NCBI GenBank assembly: GCA_905234985.1
Contig: CAJOJQ010000005.1
Location: 1-64,000, forward strand
Length of the DNA stretch: 64,000 nucleotides
Direction: 5' to 3'
Origin: an uncultured Christensenellaceae bacterium
Lineage (GTDB): Bacteria > Bacillota > Clostridia > Christensenellales > Aristaeellaceae
Below the pieces are notes generated by a model that was not told the DNA's origin, searched no databases, and saw nothing but the letters and a program-made list of their open reading frames with translations. A program made the translations under genes and the position numbers. How positions within the stretch are numbered: the first letter of the stretch is position 1; every line of letters begins with the position of its first letter. Below, one piece after another: positions 56,033 through 60,899 of this stretch.

Positions 56033-58534
56033 TCAGCCCACGACCTGGTAGCCCGCGTCGGTGACGGCCTTTTTCAGCACGTCGTCGGATACGTTCTGAT
56101 TGAGGGTCACCACGGCGGTGCCGGTTTCGTGGCTCACATTGGCGCTCACCACGCCGTCGATGGCTTCCAGGGCCTTCTGTACCCGGCCAGAGCAGTGCAT
56201 GCACATCATGCCTTCGATTTTCAACGTCTTTTCCATGGTTTTTCTCTCCTTGATCTTGATTTTTTTATCCCGCTTCGCGCTGTACAGGTCAAAGAAATTG
56301 AGCCGCAGCGCGTTGGATACCACGCAGAAGCTAGACAGGCTCATAGCCGCGGCCCCGAACATGGGGTTCATGGTCCAGCCGAACAGGGCGATGAACGCCC
56401 CCGCCGCTAAGGGGATGCCGATGATATTGTAGATGAACGCCCAGAACAGGTTTTCGTGGATGTTGCGCAATGTGGCGCGGCTCAGCCGGATGGCGGCGGG
56501 CACGTCGGTCAGGCGGCTGTTCATCAGCACCACGTCCGCCGCGTCGATGGCCACGTCGGCCCCCGCGCCGATAGCGACGCCCATATCCGCCCGGGTGAGG
56601 GCCGGGGCGTCGTTGATGCCGTCGCCCACCATGGTCACCTTGCCCTGCTTTTTGAGCTTTTGGATCACCTGCTCCTTGCCCTCTGGCAGCACGCCCGCGA
56701 TCACCTCGTCCACCCCCGCCTGTTTGCCCACGGCTTGGGCGGTGCGTTCGTTATCGCCGGTGAGCATCACCACCCGAATGCCCATGCTTTGCAGCTGCCG
56801 GATGGCGACCGGACTGTCTTCCTTGATTGTGTCCGCCACGGCGATCACGCCTAAAGCCTGACCATTTTGGGCGAAGAACAGGGGCGTTTTTCCTTCGCTC
56901 GCTAAATACTCCGCCGCGTTTTGCAGGCTGTCGGGAACAGAAACTTTTGAGGAAACGAATTTCTGATTGCCGCCTAACAGCATTTCGCCGTTCATCGTGC
57001 CCGACAGCCCGTTGCCGGGCAGGGCGGTGAAGCCGTCGATTTCCGCGACCGTCAGGCCCTTGCTTTCTCCGTATGCCACGACGGCCCGAGCCAGGGGATG
57101 CTCGCTTTTCTTTTCCAGGGCAAAGGCGGCGGTCAAAAGCTTCTGTTCGGAAACGCCGTCCAGGGGCAGCACGTCCGTCACCTGGGGTTCGCCCCTGGTG
57201 ATGGTGCCGGTTTTATCAAAAGCCACGATTTGCGTCTTGCCTGCTTCCTCCAGGGAAACGGCGGTCTTGAACAGCACGCCGTGCCGCGCGCCCAAGCCGT
57301 TGCCCACCATGATGGCGACCGGCGTCGCCAGCCCCAAGGCGCAGGGGCAGGAGATCACCAGCACCGAAATGCCCCTTGCCAGGGCGTAACCGAAGGGTTG
57401 GCCCAGCAGCAGCCAAATCACGGTGGTGATTGCCGCGATGGCAATGACCGTCGGCACGAACACGCCGGACACTCTGTCTGCCACCTTGGCGATGGGGGCC
57501 TTGGTAGCTGCCGCGTCGCTGACCATTTTGATGATCTGGGAGAGGGTAGTGTCCTGGCCCACTCTCGTTGCCCGGCATTGCAGGAAGCCGGACTGGTTCA
57601 CTGTGGCGGCGGACACGCTGTCGCCCTCCGCTTTGTCCACGGGAATGCTCTCCCCCGTCAGGGCCGCTTCGTTCACCGCACTGCCGCCGGACAACACAAC
57701 CCCGTCCACGGGGATGCTTTCGCCGGGACGGACGGTGAAAATATCCCCGGGCCGCACCTGATCAATGGGTACGGTCGTTTCCTGGCTGTTCCGCAGCAGG
57801 GTGGCCGTCTGAGGAGCCAGCTTCATCAGGCTTTTCAGGGCGTCGGTGGTTTTGCCCTTGGACCGGGCTTCTAACATTTTGCCCACGGTGATCAGGGTCA
57901 AAATCATGGCGGCGGATTCAAAATAGAATTCGTGCATGTAGCCCATCACCGCCGCCCCGTCTCCCCTGGTCTGGGCTGCGGTCATGGCGAACAGCACATA
58001 CACGCTCCAGCCGAAGCTGGCCGCCGAGCCTAAGGCCACTAAGGTGTCCATGTTGGGGGCCTTATGCCACAGGCTTTTAAAGCCGCTGATAAAGAATTTC
58101 TGGTTGATGACCATGACGATGGCGGCCAGCAGCAGCTGGGCCAGGCCCATAGCCACATGATTGCCTTCCATGAACGCGGGCAGGGGCCAGTTCCACATCA
58201 TGTGCCCCATGGAAATATACATGAGTACCATCAGGAAGCCCAAGGAGGTAAACAGCCGCCTTTTCAGTTTGGGCGTTTCGCGGTCGGCCAAAGCGTCCTC
58301 CCCAGTCGCGACGGACGCCTGAACAGCGGTTGATCCGTCCTTGCTTTGCGCTCCGTAGCCCGCTTCCTCCACGGCGCGAATGACGTCGCTTTCGCTGGCC
58401 GTGCCCTCCACGCCCATGCTGTTGGTCAGCAGGCTCACCGCGCAGCTCTGCACCCCCGGCACCTGACTGACCGCCTTTTCCACCCGGGCGCTGCACGCCG
58501 CACAGCTCATGCCCGTTACGGTATACTGTTTCAT
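56033..58534 (-). CDS. copA: Copper-exporting P1B-type ATPase with N- and C-terminal heavy-metal-binding domains
   Basis: An 833-residue Cu(I) exporter. The N-terminal HMA domain has [12 protein letters not shown] (C11, C14). Eight membrane helices include the ion-binding CPC at 396-398. The ATPase core has TGES, the phosphorylated D440 in [13 protein letters not shown] in SEHPLARA and [11 protein letters not shown] second HMA domain (about 767-833) with [12 protein letters not shown] is fused at the C-terminus, where most CopA proteins end. This domain looks like a CopZ chaperone, and a good internal start precedes it. The gene lies 7 bp after csoR in one operon. Confidence 0.96.
56234..56251 (-). 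promoter_or_regulatory. Internal ribosome-binding site and start for a CopZ-like domain
   Basis: AAGGAGAG (56244-56251) lies 7 nt before an in-frame ATG at 56234-56236. Initiation here would give a free 67-residue HMA protein (56033-56236) with the GMMCMHC copper site, besides its fused copy in CopA. Confidence 0.5.
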
Positions 58535-58541
58535 ATCATCC

Positions 58542-58850
58542 CTACTTCATCAATTTCTGCAGCGTCGCCAAAAGCTCGTCCAAGGTCTCGTCCTTCCCCG
58601 CTAAAATATCCCGTTTCACACAGGTTTTGATGTGCTGGCCCAGCAATTCCCGGTTAAAGGCCGCCAGCGCCGCGTTCACCGCCGCCACCTGTACCAGAAT
58701 GTCCGGGCAGTAGGCGTTTTTTTCCACCATGCCCCGGATGCCCCGCACCTGCCCTTCGATGCGGTTCAGTCGATGGATCAGGCAGGTGTATTCTTCTTCC
58801 GTCCGCTCCCTCACCTTATGGCAGGTGCATTCTCTTTCTTCCTGATTCAT
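58542..58850 (-). CDS. csoR: Copper-sensing repressor CsoR
   Basis: A 102-residue DUF156-family repressor. The Cu(I) ligands expected in CsoR are all present: C48 in [10 protein letters not shown]73 and C77 in GQHIKTCVK. The helix [16 protein letters not shown] is the family signature. An additional N-terminal CTCH pair may bind metal too. It releases DNA when Cu(I) binds. Palindromic operators overlap its promoter, so it represses itself and copA. GGAGGACTG precedes the ATG. Confidence 0.95.
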
Positions 58851-58970: not shown

Positions 58971-58999
58971 TTGACGTTCCGGACAAAGTGTGCTATACT
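58971..58999 (+). promoter_or_regulatory. Promoter of the aquaporin gene
   Basis: TTGACG (58971-58976) and TATACT (58994-58999) with a 17-bp spacer. It is divergent from the csoR promoter and about 50 bp away from it, with no operator-like site over it. Confidence 0.87.
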
Positions 59000-59040
59000 A
59001 TGCGCCGAGCGCAAGCTCTATGAAAAAGGAGGAAATACGC

Positions 59041-59730
59041 ATGAAAAAGTATCTTGCCGAGTGCATCGGCACCGCCACCTTGGTGATCTTAGGCTGCGGC
59101 ACCGCCATGCTGGTGGGCTGCAACGCGGCTGCTGGCAGCGGCTATCTGCTCACCGCCCTGGCCTTCGGCCTGACCATCGTAGCCATGGCTTACTCCATCG
59201 GCAACATCTCCGGCTGCCACATCAACCCCGCCGTTTCCTTAGGCGTGCTGCTCACCGGCGGCATGAGCGCCAAGGAATTTGTGGGCTATGTCATTTCCCA
59301 GTGCGTGGGCGCGCTGGCGGGCGCGGGCGTCCTGGCCGCCATCTTCGGCCTGGGCAGCGTAACCGACATGACCGGCGGCCTGGGTTCCAACGGCCTGGCG
59401 GGCGTGGGCGGCAGCGCCCTTGCCGGTCTGGTGGTTGAAATCGTCCTCACCTTCATCTTCGTCATCGCCATCTTGGGCGTCACCAGCAAAAAAGCCAATC
59501 ACGGCTCCTTCGGCGGCCTGGTCATCGGCCTGACGCTGGTGGTTGTCCATATCCTGGGCATCGGCCTCACCGGCACCTCCGTGAACCCCGCCCGTTCCTT
59601 CGGCCCCGCCCTGGTGGCCGCCATTCGCGGCAACAGCGTGCCCCTGGCCGATCTGTGGGTGTTCATCGTGGGTCCTCTCGTAGGCGCGGCCCTGGCGGCC
59701 TTCACCTACAAGACGCTGGAAACCAAATAA
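59041..59730 (+). CDS. aqpZ: Water channel of the AqpZ type
   Basis: A 229-residue MIP-family channel with six helices and two NPA boxes (N62-P-A, N182-P-A). The selectivity filter reads F42, H170, T179, R185, which is the water-selective AqpZ pattern rather than the glycerol-facilitator pattern. AAAGGAGGAAA precedes the ATG at 59041; longer in-frame starts lie in the promoter. It has its own promoter and terminator. Confidence 0.95.
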   Translation: MKKYLAECIGTATLVILGCGTAMLVGCNAAAGSGYLLTALAFGLTIVAMAYSIGNISGCHINPAVSLGVLLTGGMSAKEFVGYVISQCVGALAGAGVLAAIFGLGSVTDMTGGLGSNGLAGVGGSALAGLVVEIVLTFIFVIAILGVTSKKANHGSFGGLVIGLTLVVVHILGIGLTGTSVNPARSFGPALVAAIRGNSVPLADLWVFIVGPLVGAALAAFTYKTLETK

Positions 59731-59748
59731 GGTTCTGCCCGTTCTCTT

Positions 59749-59781
59749 CCCCTTCGCCGAAACCCGGCGGAGGGGTTTTTT
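59749..59781 (+). terminator. Rho-independent terminator of aqpZ
   Basis: CCCCTTCGCCG pairs with CGGCGGAGGGG around a short loop and is followed by six T. Confidence 0.93.
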
Positions 59782-59918
59782 ACGCCGTTCAAAATTTTTG
59801 CTTCAAACTAAAAAGCCGCCGTTTTCCCGAAACCTGTCGATTTGCACAAAATGCCAGCGTATTTTCACCCGGTTCGGTCAAAATAGCATTGATCCTGAAT
59901 GAAGGAGGTGAAAAAGCA

Positions 59919-60134
59919 ATGAACCAGTCTGGCAGCAATTCCGACAGCCGGGTCAACGTGCCCGAAGCCCGGGGCGCCCTGGACAACATGAAGTTTGAAA
60001 TCGCCCGCGAACTGGGCATCAACTTCAAGCAGGGCTACAACGGCGACCTCACCAGCCGCGAAAACGGCTATGTGGGCGGATACATGGTCAAGCGTCTGAT
60101 CGAGCAGGCGGAGAAGCAAATGGCGGGCAAGTAA
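59919..60134 (+). CDS. Alpha/beta-type small acid-soluble spore protein
   Basis: A 71-residue DNA-coating protein of the spore core. The conserved parts are PEARGALDNMKFEIARELGI and NGDLTSRENGYVGG then YMVKRLIE, which match the SspA/B family, including the GPR protease site region (FEIA). GGAGGTGAAA precedes the ATG. A forespore-type promoter is likely: GCGTATT and CAAAATA boxes lie 15 bp apart just upstream (about 59856-59885), but this is weak. Confidence 0.93.
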   Translation: MNQSGSNSDSRVNVPEARGALDNMKFEIARELGINFKQGYNGDLTSRENGYVGGYMVKRLIEQAEKQMAGK

Positions 60135-60149
60135 GGCGATAAGGGAAGG

Positions 60150-60340
60150 GCGCGCCTGGCGGTCGGCGACGCGCTGCTTTGGAAGGACGGATATCATCCG
60201 CCCGGACAGAGGAGGGCAGAGCTGTTCCCGTCAGGAAGGAAAGCTCTGCGTTGATCGGCAAAAAAAGCCGGGAACCGCAGGGTGTTTCCCCTGACGGGAT
60301 CGGGCGGATGATATCTATCCTTTCCGTCCGGCGCGCTTTT
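60150..60340 (+). ncRNA. Candidate structured RNA with a pseudoknot between two ssp genes
   Basis: An outer helix pairs GCGCGCC (60150-60156) with GGCGCGC (60330-60336), which is followed by TTTT. A second helix pairs GATATCATCCGCCCG (60190-60204) perfectly with 60301-60315 and continues with GGAAGGA against TCCTTTCC. Inside are a hairpin GCAGAGCT/AGCTCTGC (60216-60249), a hairpin CGGC/GCCG (60256-60270) and GGGAA/TTCCC (60270-60290). The loop of the first hairpin, TCCCGTCAGG (60226-60235), is perfectly complementary to CCTGACGGGA (60290-60299), forming a pseudoknot. I do not recognise the class. It may be a stand-alone RNA, the 3' end of the first ssp mRNA or the leader of the second. Confidence 0.65.
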
Positions 60341-60444
60341 CCCCATTCCCGCCGGGGAGCGGCAAAAGCCGCACGATCCGGCGTATGCCCGCAAGGTGTT
60401 TACCTGAAAAATCAAAATAAAGCATCGAACAGGAGGAAATCGTC

Positions 60445-60687
60445 ATGTTCAATTCCAACAACGGTTCTATGGCCGCTTCCAGCAATTCCAGCAACTCCAA
60501 CCGCGCCAACGTGCCCGAAGCCCGCGCCGCCCTGGACAACATGAAATATGAAATCGCCAGCGAACTGGGCATCAACCTCAAGCAGGGCTACAACGGCGAT
60601 CTGCCTTCCCGCCAGGCCGGCTATATCGGCGGCTACATGGTCAAGCGCATGATCGAACAGCAGGAACGCCAGATGAGCGGCAAGTAA
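60445..60687 (+). CDS. Alpha/beta-type small acid-soluble spore protein
   Basis: An 80-residue paralogue of the upstream ssp product with an Asn/Ser-rich head (FNSNNGSMAASSNSSNS). The core reads PEARAALDNMKYEIASELGI then NGDLPSRQAGYIGG and YMVKRMIE. A proline replaces the usual threonine in the TSR stretch (LPSRQ). GGAGGAAA precedes the ATG, and the CAAAATA box seen before the first ssp gene recurs at 60413-60419, suggesting co-regulation in the forespore. Confidence 0.93.
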   Translation: MFNSNNGSMAASSNSSNSNRANVPEARAALDNMKYEIASELGINLKQGYNGDLPSRQAGYIGGYMVKRMIEQQERQMSGK

Positions 60688-60899
60688 GCGCCGAATGAAA
60701 AAGGGCCGGAATGCGCATAAGCCGTCCCGCGCCCTTTCCGCCCGCTTTCCGGGAAACCGGGGAGGGGGCGTTTTGTTGTCAAAGCATACAGCCTTTGCTT
60801 TAAGAAAGAAACTCCCGGTTGACTTCTCCTGTTTTCTTCCAAAAAACAGCTTCGGGCGTGACTTTTTGTTCCGGGTATTCTTATGCGCTAATATGCTCG

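Follow-up and report, generated by a model that had tools for sequence, protein, structure and literature searches.

The stretch between two tandem spore-protein genes of the window (the whole 64,000 nucleotides of DNA analysed here) holds two elements of unrelated appearance: the relic of a REP doublet, which gives the conspicuous large hairpin, and, beside it, a conserved 36-nt hairpin that probably serves as an intercistronic cis element of the ssp messenger RNA. The features of the locus, by position and strand, are listed below.

59859–59885, plus strand: sigma-G-like promoter of ssp1 (GTATT, 15 nt, CAAAATA), an instance of the string CCAGNGTANN-N15/16-CANAATAGCA
59919–60134, plus strand: ssp1, alpha/beta-type small acid-soluble spore protein (SASP), 71 aa (PF00269, 98.2 bits)
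60143–60162, plus strand: flanking outer stem, 5' side, 80% complementary to 60324–60343 and alignable only in the two closest homologues
60181–60204, plus strand: degenerate GTAG-REP arm with GGAA in place of the tag, differing from the genomic consensus by 3 mismatches
60205–60300, no strand assigned: REP-doublet spacer with the hairpin 60216–60223/60242–60249 and the pairing 60226–60235/60290–60299, exact here and decaying in homologues
60301–60324, minus strand: second REP arm, in inverted (head-to-head) orientation, with GAAA in place of the tag and 5 mismatches from the consensus
60324–60343, plus strand: flanking outer stem, 3' side, placed by complementarity and including TTTT at 60337–60340
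60349–60384, plus strand: conserved hairpin, defined by a nine-genome alignment, covariation and covariance-model searches
60350–60355/60378–60383: P1 of this hairpin
60356–60358 (GGA) and 60373–60377 (ACGAT): its internal loop
60359–60363/60368–60372: its P2
60364–60367: its apical loop
60445–60687, plus strand: ssp2, alpha/beta-type small acid-soluble spore protein, 80 aa (PF00269, 102.4 bits)

The initial annotation had placed the region between two spore-protein genes, and both neighbours are indeed alpha/beta SASP genes (PF00269). The string CCAGNGTANN-N15/16-CANAATAGCA, which we call sigma-G-like for its resemblance to the sigma-G consensus, precedes ssp1 in 22 of 24 genomes of the genus, and the upstream regions of the other two contain what are, by eye, close variants of it. 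Nothing with a comparable score occurs in the 13 ssp1–ssp2 gaps of at least 90 nt: true promoters score at least 26.6, and the best gap score is 5.8, in G003, a value above all 30 shuffles of that gap (maximum −0.6). A search of 59740–60820 for a sigma-70-like site returned none. With one conserved promoter upstream of ssp1 and none comparable in the gaps, ssp1 and ssp2 look like one operon in which the 36-nt hairpin would be intercistronic. These comparisons draw on the 29 genomes of the genus. A match to ssp1 at 1e-15 is present in 24 of them, and the gap was extracted from 20; G004, G006, G018 and G027, with a single SASP motif near the match, were excluded from the gap counts. Gap length ranges from 39 to 650 nt in these 20 genomes, the values being approximate because ssp2 start codons were chosen by a simple ribosome-site rule.

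Other genes of the window surround this pair. Beside it on the minus strand lie an McrC-like protein (PF10117, 60900–62237) and an AAA protein (PF07728, 62209–63981), which probably form an McrBC-type restriction system. A P-type metal ATPase, recognised by its look, and a metal-sensitive repressor (PF02583) are encoded at 56033–58850 on the minus strand, and an aquaporin-type channel (PF00230) is encoded divergently from them at 58990–59730 on the plus strand.

When the stretch was searched against the window's own genome, the core helix returned many matches of about 20 bp, and at the places read the common unit was GTAGGGGCGGATATCATCCGCCCG, followed by a spacer and then by a similar unit in inverted orientation. 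The genome contains 50 matches to the arm with at most 3 mismatches (25 per strand, the window arm at 60181–60204 included), against 0 in a reversed control. As many as 32 of the 50 form 16 head-to-head pairs, 15 of them spanning 77–109 bp and one 161; a 17th listed pair, with a span of 27, was discounted because its two matches are the same palindromic site read on either strand. The window copy shares the palindrome body of this high-copy family and its doublet geometry, its arms at 60181–60204 (+) and 60301–60324 (−) standing head-to-head with a span of 144. The arms have 3 and 5 mismatches, and none of 200 shuffled versions of the gap came closer than 8. By sequence, 60181–60324 is thus best classed as a decayed head-to-head GTAG-type REP pair (REPIN-like). 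Against a REP origin stand the missing GTAG tag at the foot of the palindrome, where the arms start with GGAA and GAAA, and the failure to find a RAYT in the same genome; since both tags are changed, we describe the copy as a relic and not as a working member of the family.

The wider family resembles known systems closely. According to passages of PMC3733652, GTAG-type REPs combine a GTAG tag with a short palindrome and go with RAYT transposases, and head-to-head REP doublets that form a hairpin are termed REPINs in passages of PMC3116915. The family described here has the same GTAG tag and palindrome, many copies, head-to-head doublets and a RAYT-like gene with REP arms. Of 100 genomes searched, 20 contain the REP pattern, and 17 of these belong to the 29-member genus. 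Pfam Y1_Tnp gave no match in the window genome, which is 92.7% complete, and matches in 10 of the 29 genus genomes. Searched over the genus, the Y1_Tnp-matched protein of G026 has close relatives in six of the 29 (E ≤ 1.9e-48; G026 itself, G005, G027, G025, G004 and G016) and distant ones in three others. For the two RAYT-like proteins that were tested, the sole NCBIfam match was to the REP-associated tyrosine transposase family NF047646, with scores of 66.9 and 57.8 bits that fall short of the cut-off of 80. GTAG-tagged arms with 0–2 mismatches lie inside the matched range of the RAYT-like gene in five of the six genomes and only beside it in G025, and the loci of the three distant relatives contain no such arms. 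REP matches number 14 to 325 in the six genomes with the close gene and 0 in the three with a distant one; a further eleven genomes of the genus, among them that of the window, have REP matches and no close RAYT-like gene that we found. Close gene and GTAG arms thus occur together in 6 of the 29 genomes, as for a cognate RAYT of this REP family.

In G026 (L293:1305–1853) and G027 (L292:1305–1913), both on the minus strand, the frame of the RAYT-like gene contains both arms of a GTAG-REP doublet, and the genes flanking it are presumably dapL-like and dapF-like. G004, which has the close RAYT-like gene, carries 325 REP matches with at most 3 mismatches (169 and 156), the most among the 100 genomes. 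Unlike in described GTAG REP/RAYT systems, the window copy is tagless, and the arms lie inside the matched range of the RAYT-like gene in five of six relatives. The host also differs, being a member of the Clostridia: neither ‘Clostridi’ nor ‘Firmicutes’ occurs in the main text of PMC3733652, and main-text passages of PMC3733652, PMC6006769 and PMC12306157, supplements aside, contain no description of a REP family of this kind in Clostridia.

Our best guess is that the relic is now either neutral or co-opted. A co-opted doublet would form a long intercistronic hairpin that stabilises the ssp1 messenger and lowers ssp2, the 36-nt hairpin acting together with it, a reading that we consider rather unlikely. 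Intercistronic REPs can stabilise mRNA, as in E. coli operons, and the window doublet resembles such enterobacterial hairpins in placing a long hairpin between co-directional genes of an apparent operon. Co-option would fit a doublet whose position is shared by five species (G000, G003, G010, G028 and G023) and whose arms nowhere depart from the consensus by more than 5 mismatches, although G028 has no arm with at most 3 mismatches anywhere in its genome; ssp gaps shorter than 60 nt were skipped in this arm-mismatch scan. The doublets of G028 and G023 are diverged, with a quite different spacer, and all ten arms of the five species lack GTAG and start instead with G-(A/G)-A-(A/G). Such shared departures from the genomic consensus might mean selection on the long hairpin. 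The same could be true of G028, where one T–A pair has become C–G on both arms, but an inserted variant or template switching could also be behind this change, as template switching in quasi-palindromes can give matching changes on both arms. Passages of PMC3116915 describe compensatory changes as common in REPIN hairpins anyway. A further argument against co-option is that four of the nine carriers of the 36-nt hairpin have no recognisable doublet of the GTAG-REP type. In the gap of G013 (L051), the 36-nt hairpin is preceded by an inverted pair of another kind, around GGGCGAACGTCATCCGTCC; with 8 and 10 mismatches from the REP consensus, this pair may represent a second type of REP.

Under the reading that we prefer, the pair at 60181–60324 presumably owes its past spread to a tyrosine transposase of the RAYT type; it has since lost its GTAG tags and would now be passed on by descent. 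The large hairpin and an apparent pseudoknot arise from its arms and its partly complementary spacer. The second element, at 60349–60384, would be a single-copy structured element, so far seen in one genus only.

In the window, this hairpin reads CGCCGG-GGA-GCGGC-AAAA-GCCGC-ACGAT-CCGGCG over 60350–60383. Across the nine aligned sequences, 94 of 99 cells are paired (94.9%), and pairing falls to 31–44% when the partner is shifted by 1–3 columns. Two-sided changes affect 5 of the 11 pairs, a count matched by 2 of 500 shuffles, and the covariation score is matched by 1 of 500; the number of further pair types is unremarkable, being reached by 154 of 500. All two-sided changes are confined to the rows of G005, G013 and G020, which make up one weakly supported clade. 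The internal-loop bases GGA and A-Y-GAT are invariant save for one C/T, and columns outside the hairpin agree at 0.11–0.67. The element thus has the covarying stems of a conserved structured RNA (5 of 11 pairs, nine sequences), with a pairing that is strand-symmetric: 94 of 99 cells pair whether it is read as plus or minus strand, which does not favour a sense RNA over DNA or an antisense RNA.

The hairpin occurs once in each of nine of the 29 genus genomes, every time in the ssp1–ssp2 gap, at distances to ssp1 and ssp2 that vary widely. All nine gaps of at least 180 nt carry it, and none of the 11 shorter ones (39–133 nt) does. A covariance model built from seven distinct rows gave one match in each of these nine genus genomes; it recovered the same nine plus one weak match among 300 family genomes, and the window genome only among 398 phylum genomes, both under stricter filters with which weak matches are lost. 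The weak tenth match (G237/L163; 30.3 bits, E 0.005) lies inside a 434-codon open reading frame of the opposite strand, with no ssp seen nearby, and was put down to chance. A second model, of four rows and leaving out G005, G013 and G020, was run on 90 loci (L139–L152 not among them) and placed these three species immediately behind the rows from which it was built and the identical copies of those rows, at 36.5, 30.4 and 23.6 bits (E 2.3e-4, 0.0042 and 0.1), the next best candidate reaching 17.0 bits; the third species is therefore recovered only weakly, at E = 0.1. A strict pattern for the hairpin hit 20 loci, which through repeat fetches amount to nine genomes, and had 0 hits in 663,097 bases of reversed text. 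Phage records gave no match, and a pattern scan of viral contigs, with at least 120 stretches returned, was too unspecific to be informative.

Among 44 tandem ssp gaps measured in the fetched loci (drawn from 80 loci, same-genus genomes included and the remaining loci being without an ssp pair), 32 are 20–64 nt long and 7 are at least 180 nt, and every one of the latter carries the hairpin. As most tandem ssp gaps are short and those of at least 180 nt are all carriers, the long gap with its hairpin was probably acquired later, within a single lineage. The gene tree, in which 2 of 21 inner branches are well supported, is too weak to settle a single origin of the hairpin either way.

The initial annotation had been unable to match the region to any RNA class and had proposed a covariance-model search; in agreement with it, no Rfam 15 family matched (0 matches in the window, and nothing better than E 2.4 in the region 59730–60800). 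At the loci of the eight other carriers, Rfam 15 likewise gave nothing at the hairpin and a T-box below threshold elsewhere, this being a T-box leader match on the minus strand near the ssp locus of G028 (L159:630–872; 86.4 bits against an Rfam cut-off of 93). In its small covarying stems, nearly invariant internal loop and position beside one gene type, the hairpin is like the candidate cis-regulatory RNAs of Rfam, differing from them in having no match in Rfam 15. It also recalls a kink-turn, as by eye its internal loop could form G.A and A.G pairs. The standard kink-turn bulge has three nucleotides (PMC5061560), and the bulge A(C/T) before GA has two in all nine sequences, one short of the standard; this identity was therefore rejected.

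Most likely, then, the hairpin is an intercistronic cis element of a two-gene ssp messenger, in which it would set the stability or the relative output of ssp1 and ssp2, either as the binding site, at its internal loop, of a protein or as a barrier to decay. Against this reading, the hairpin is absent from 11 of the 20 gaps, so that the operon manages without it, its distance to both genes varies widely, and the strand symmetry of its pairing leaves room for a role at the DNA level. More tentatively, and at somewhat less than even chances, the hairpin may be an undescribed RNA class, a forespore mRNA element gained together with the longer gap in one lineage of Clostridia. Its nearly invariant internal loop would then be where a spore-specific protein or ligand binds, so as to adjust the relative amounts or the timing of the two ssp products, which protect DNA.

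Two alternatives take the hairpin for something else. It might be a DNA element, a hairpin recognised in recombination or by a transposase, and not an RNA element; its strand-symmetric pairing fits, as do carrier gaps of 180–650 nt, several of which hold inserted repeats, but a single match per carrier and the lack of any other in the 300 family and 398 phylum genomes, bar the weak one in an unrelated reading frame, make this improbable. Somewhat more doubtful still is a trans-acting small RNA that includes the hairpin and is either transcribed from the gap or derived from the ssp messenger by processing: the variable position of the hairpin relative to both genes would suit such an RNA, but the gaps have no ssp1-like promoter score, 59740–60820 has no sigma-70-like site and, by eye, no second stretch is common to all nine carriers.

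The initial annotation had described instead a pseudoknotted RNA of about 190 nt formed by long conserved pairings and ending in a terminator. The pairings themselves are real: the helices 60150–60156/60330–60336 (7 bp) and 60190–60204/60301–60315 (15 bp) are exact and without mismatch, as are the loop pairing 60226–60235/60290–60299 (10 bp) and the hairpin that bears this loop, 60216–60223/60242–60249 (8 bp). The fold of 60135–60360 is also far more stable than that of dinucleotide shuffles (−130.7 versus −93.8 kcal/mol; z −7.5; 0 of 200 as good). The conservation of these pairings was not confirmed. Near full-length matches to the stretch occur in two of 99 relatives, G003 (90%) and G010 (86%), in the same ssp gap, and across the three aligned sequences (window, G003 and G010) 0 of 40 pairs changed on both sides. 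The outer two helices are invariant over these close homologues and hence uninformative on conservation, and pairing has dropped to 75% of cells in the hairpin 60216–60223/60242–60249 and to 86.7% in the 60226–60235/60290–60299 helix. With the REP spacer compared in two close homologues only, three sequences being few, this weakens the pseudoknot in the window species and falls short of excluding it there.

The helices of the pseudoknot are thus present, but the minimum-energy nested fold contains nine of the ten loop-helix pairs and none of the eight hairpin pairs. Similarly, GGCGCGC followed by four T is present as described for a terminator, but a terminator scan came up empty there, its reach being limited to loops of 3–8 and the long-range stem lying outside it. 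With a REP doublet relic at its core, inner pairings that decay uncompensated and a nested alternative fold, the 190-nt pseudoknot was rejected as a conserved RNA; what survives of the structured-RNA proposal is the conserved 36-nt hairpin with its covarying stems, inside the annotated range although not named there. A single conserved RNA over the whole stretch, pseudoknotted, terminator-ended and either regulatory or acting in trans, is very improbable: exact helices, a z of −7.5 and outer helices intact in three species speak for it, and against it stand a core helix that is a genome-wide repeat, pseudoknot helices that lose pairs with 0 of 40 changed on both sides, the nested alternative fold, and a gap in which neither a sigma-70-like promoter nor a short-loop terminator was found. 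The suggested part in spore formation is plausible solely through the adjoining ssp genes.

We know of no description of post-transcriptional control inside an alpha/beta SASP operon. A literature search returned, by title or start of abstract, no described ssp-linked RNA, and a word search of the main text of PMC8040213 found no mention of spores. The eye-catching structure is an ordinary kind of thing, and the novelty is modest, consisting of the small hairpin and of the REP/RAYT pair in relatives. The analysis separates this conspicuous but ordinary REP doublet relic from its small conserved neighbour. It also points to uncultured Clostridia as hosts of a REP/RAYT system with arms inside the transposase gene, useful for asking how REPINs arise from the transposase, and if the 36-nt hairpin works as RNA, it would bring post-transcriptional control into an alpha/beta SASP operon.
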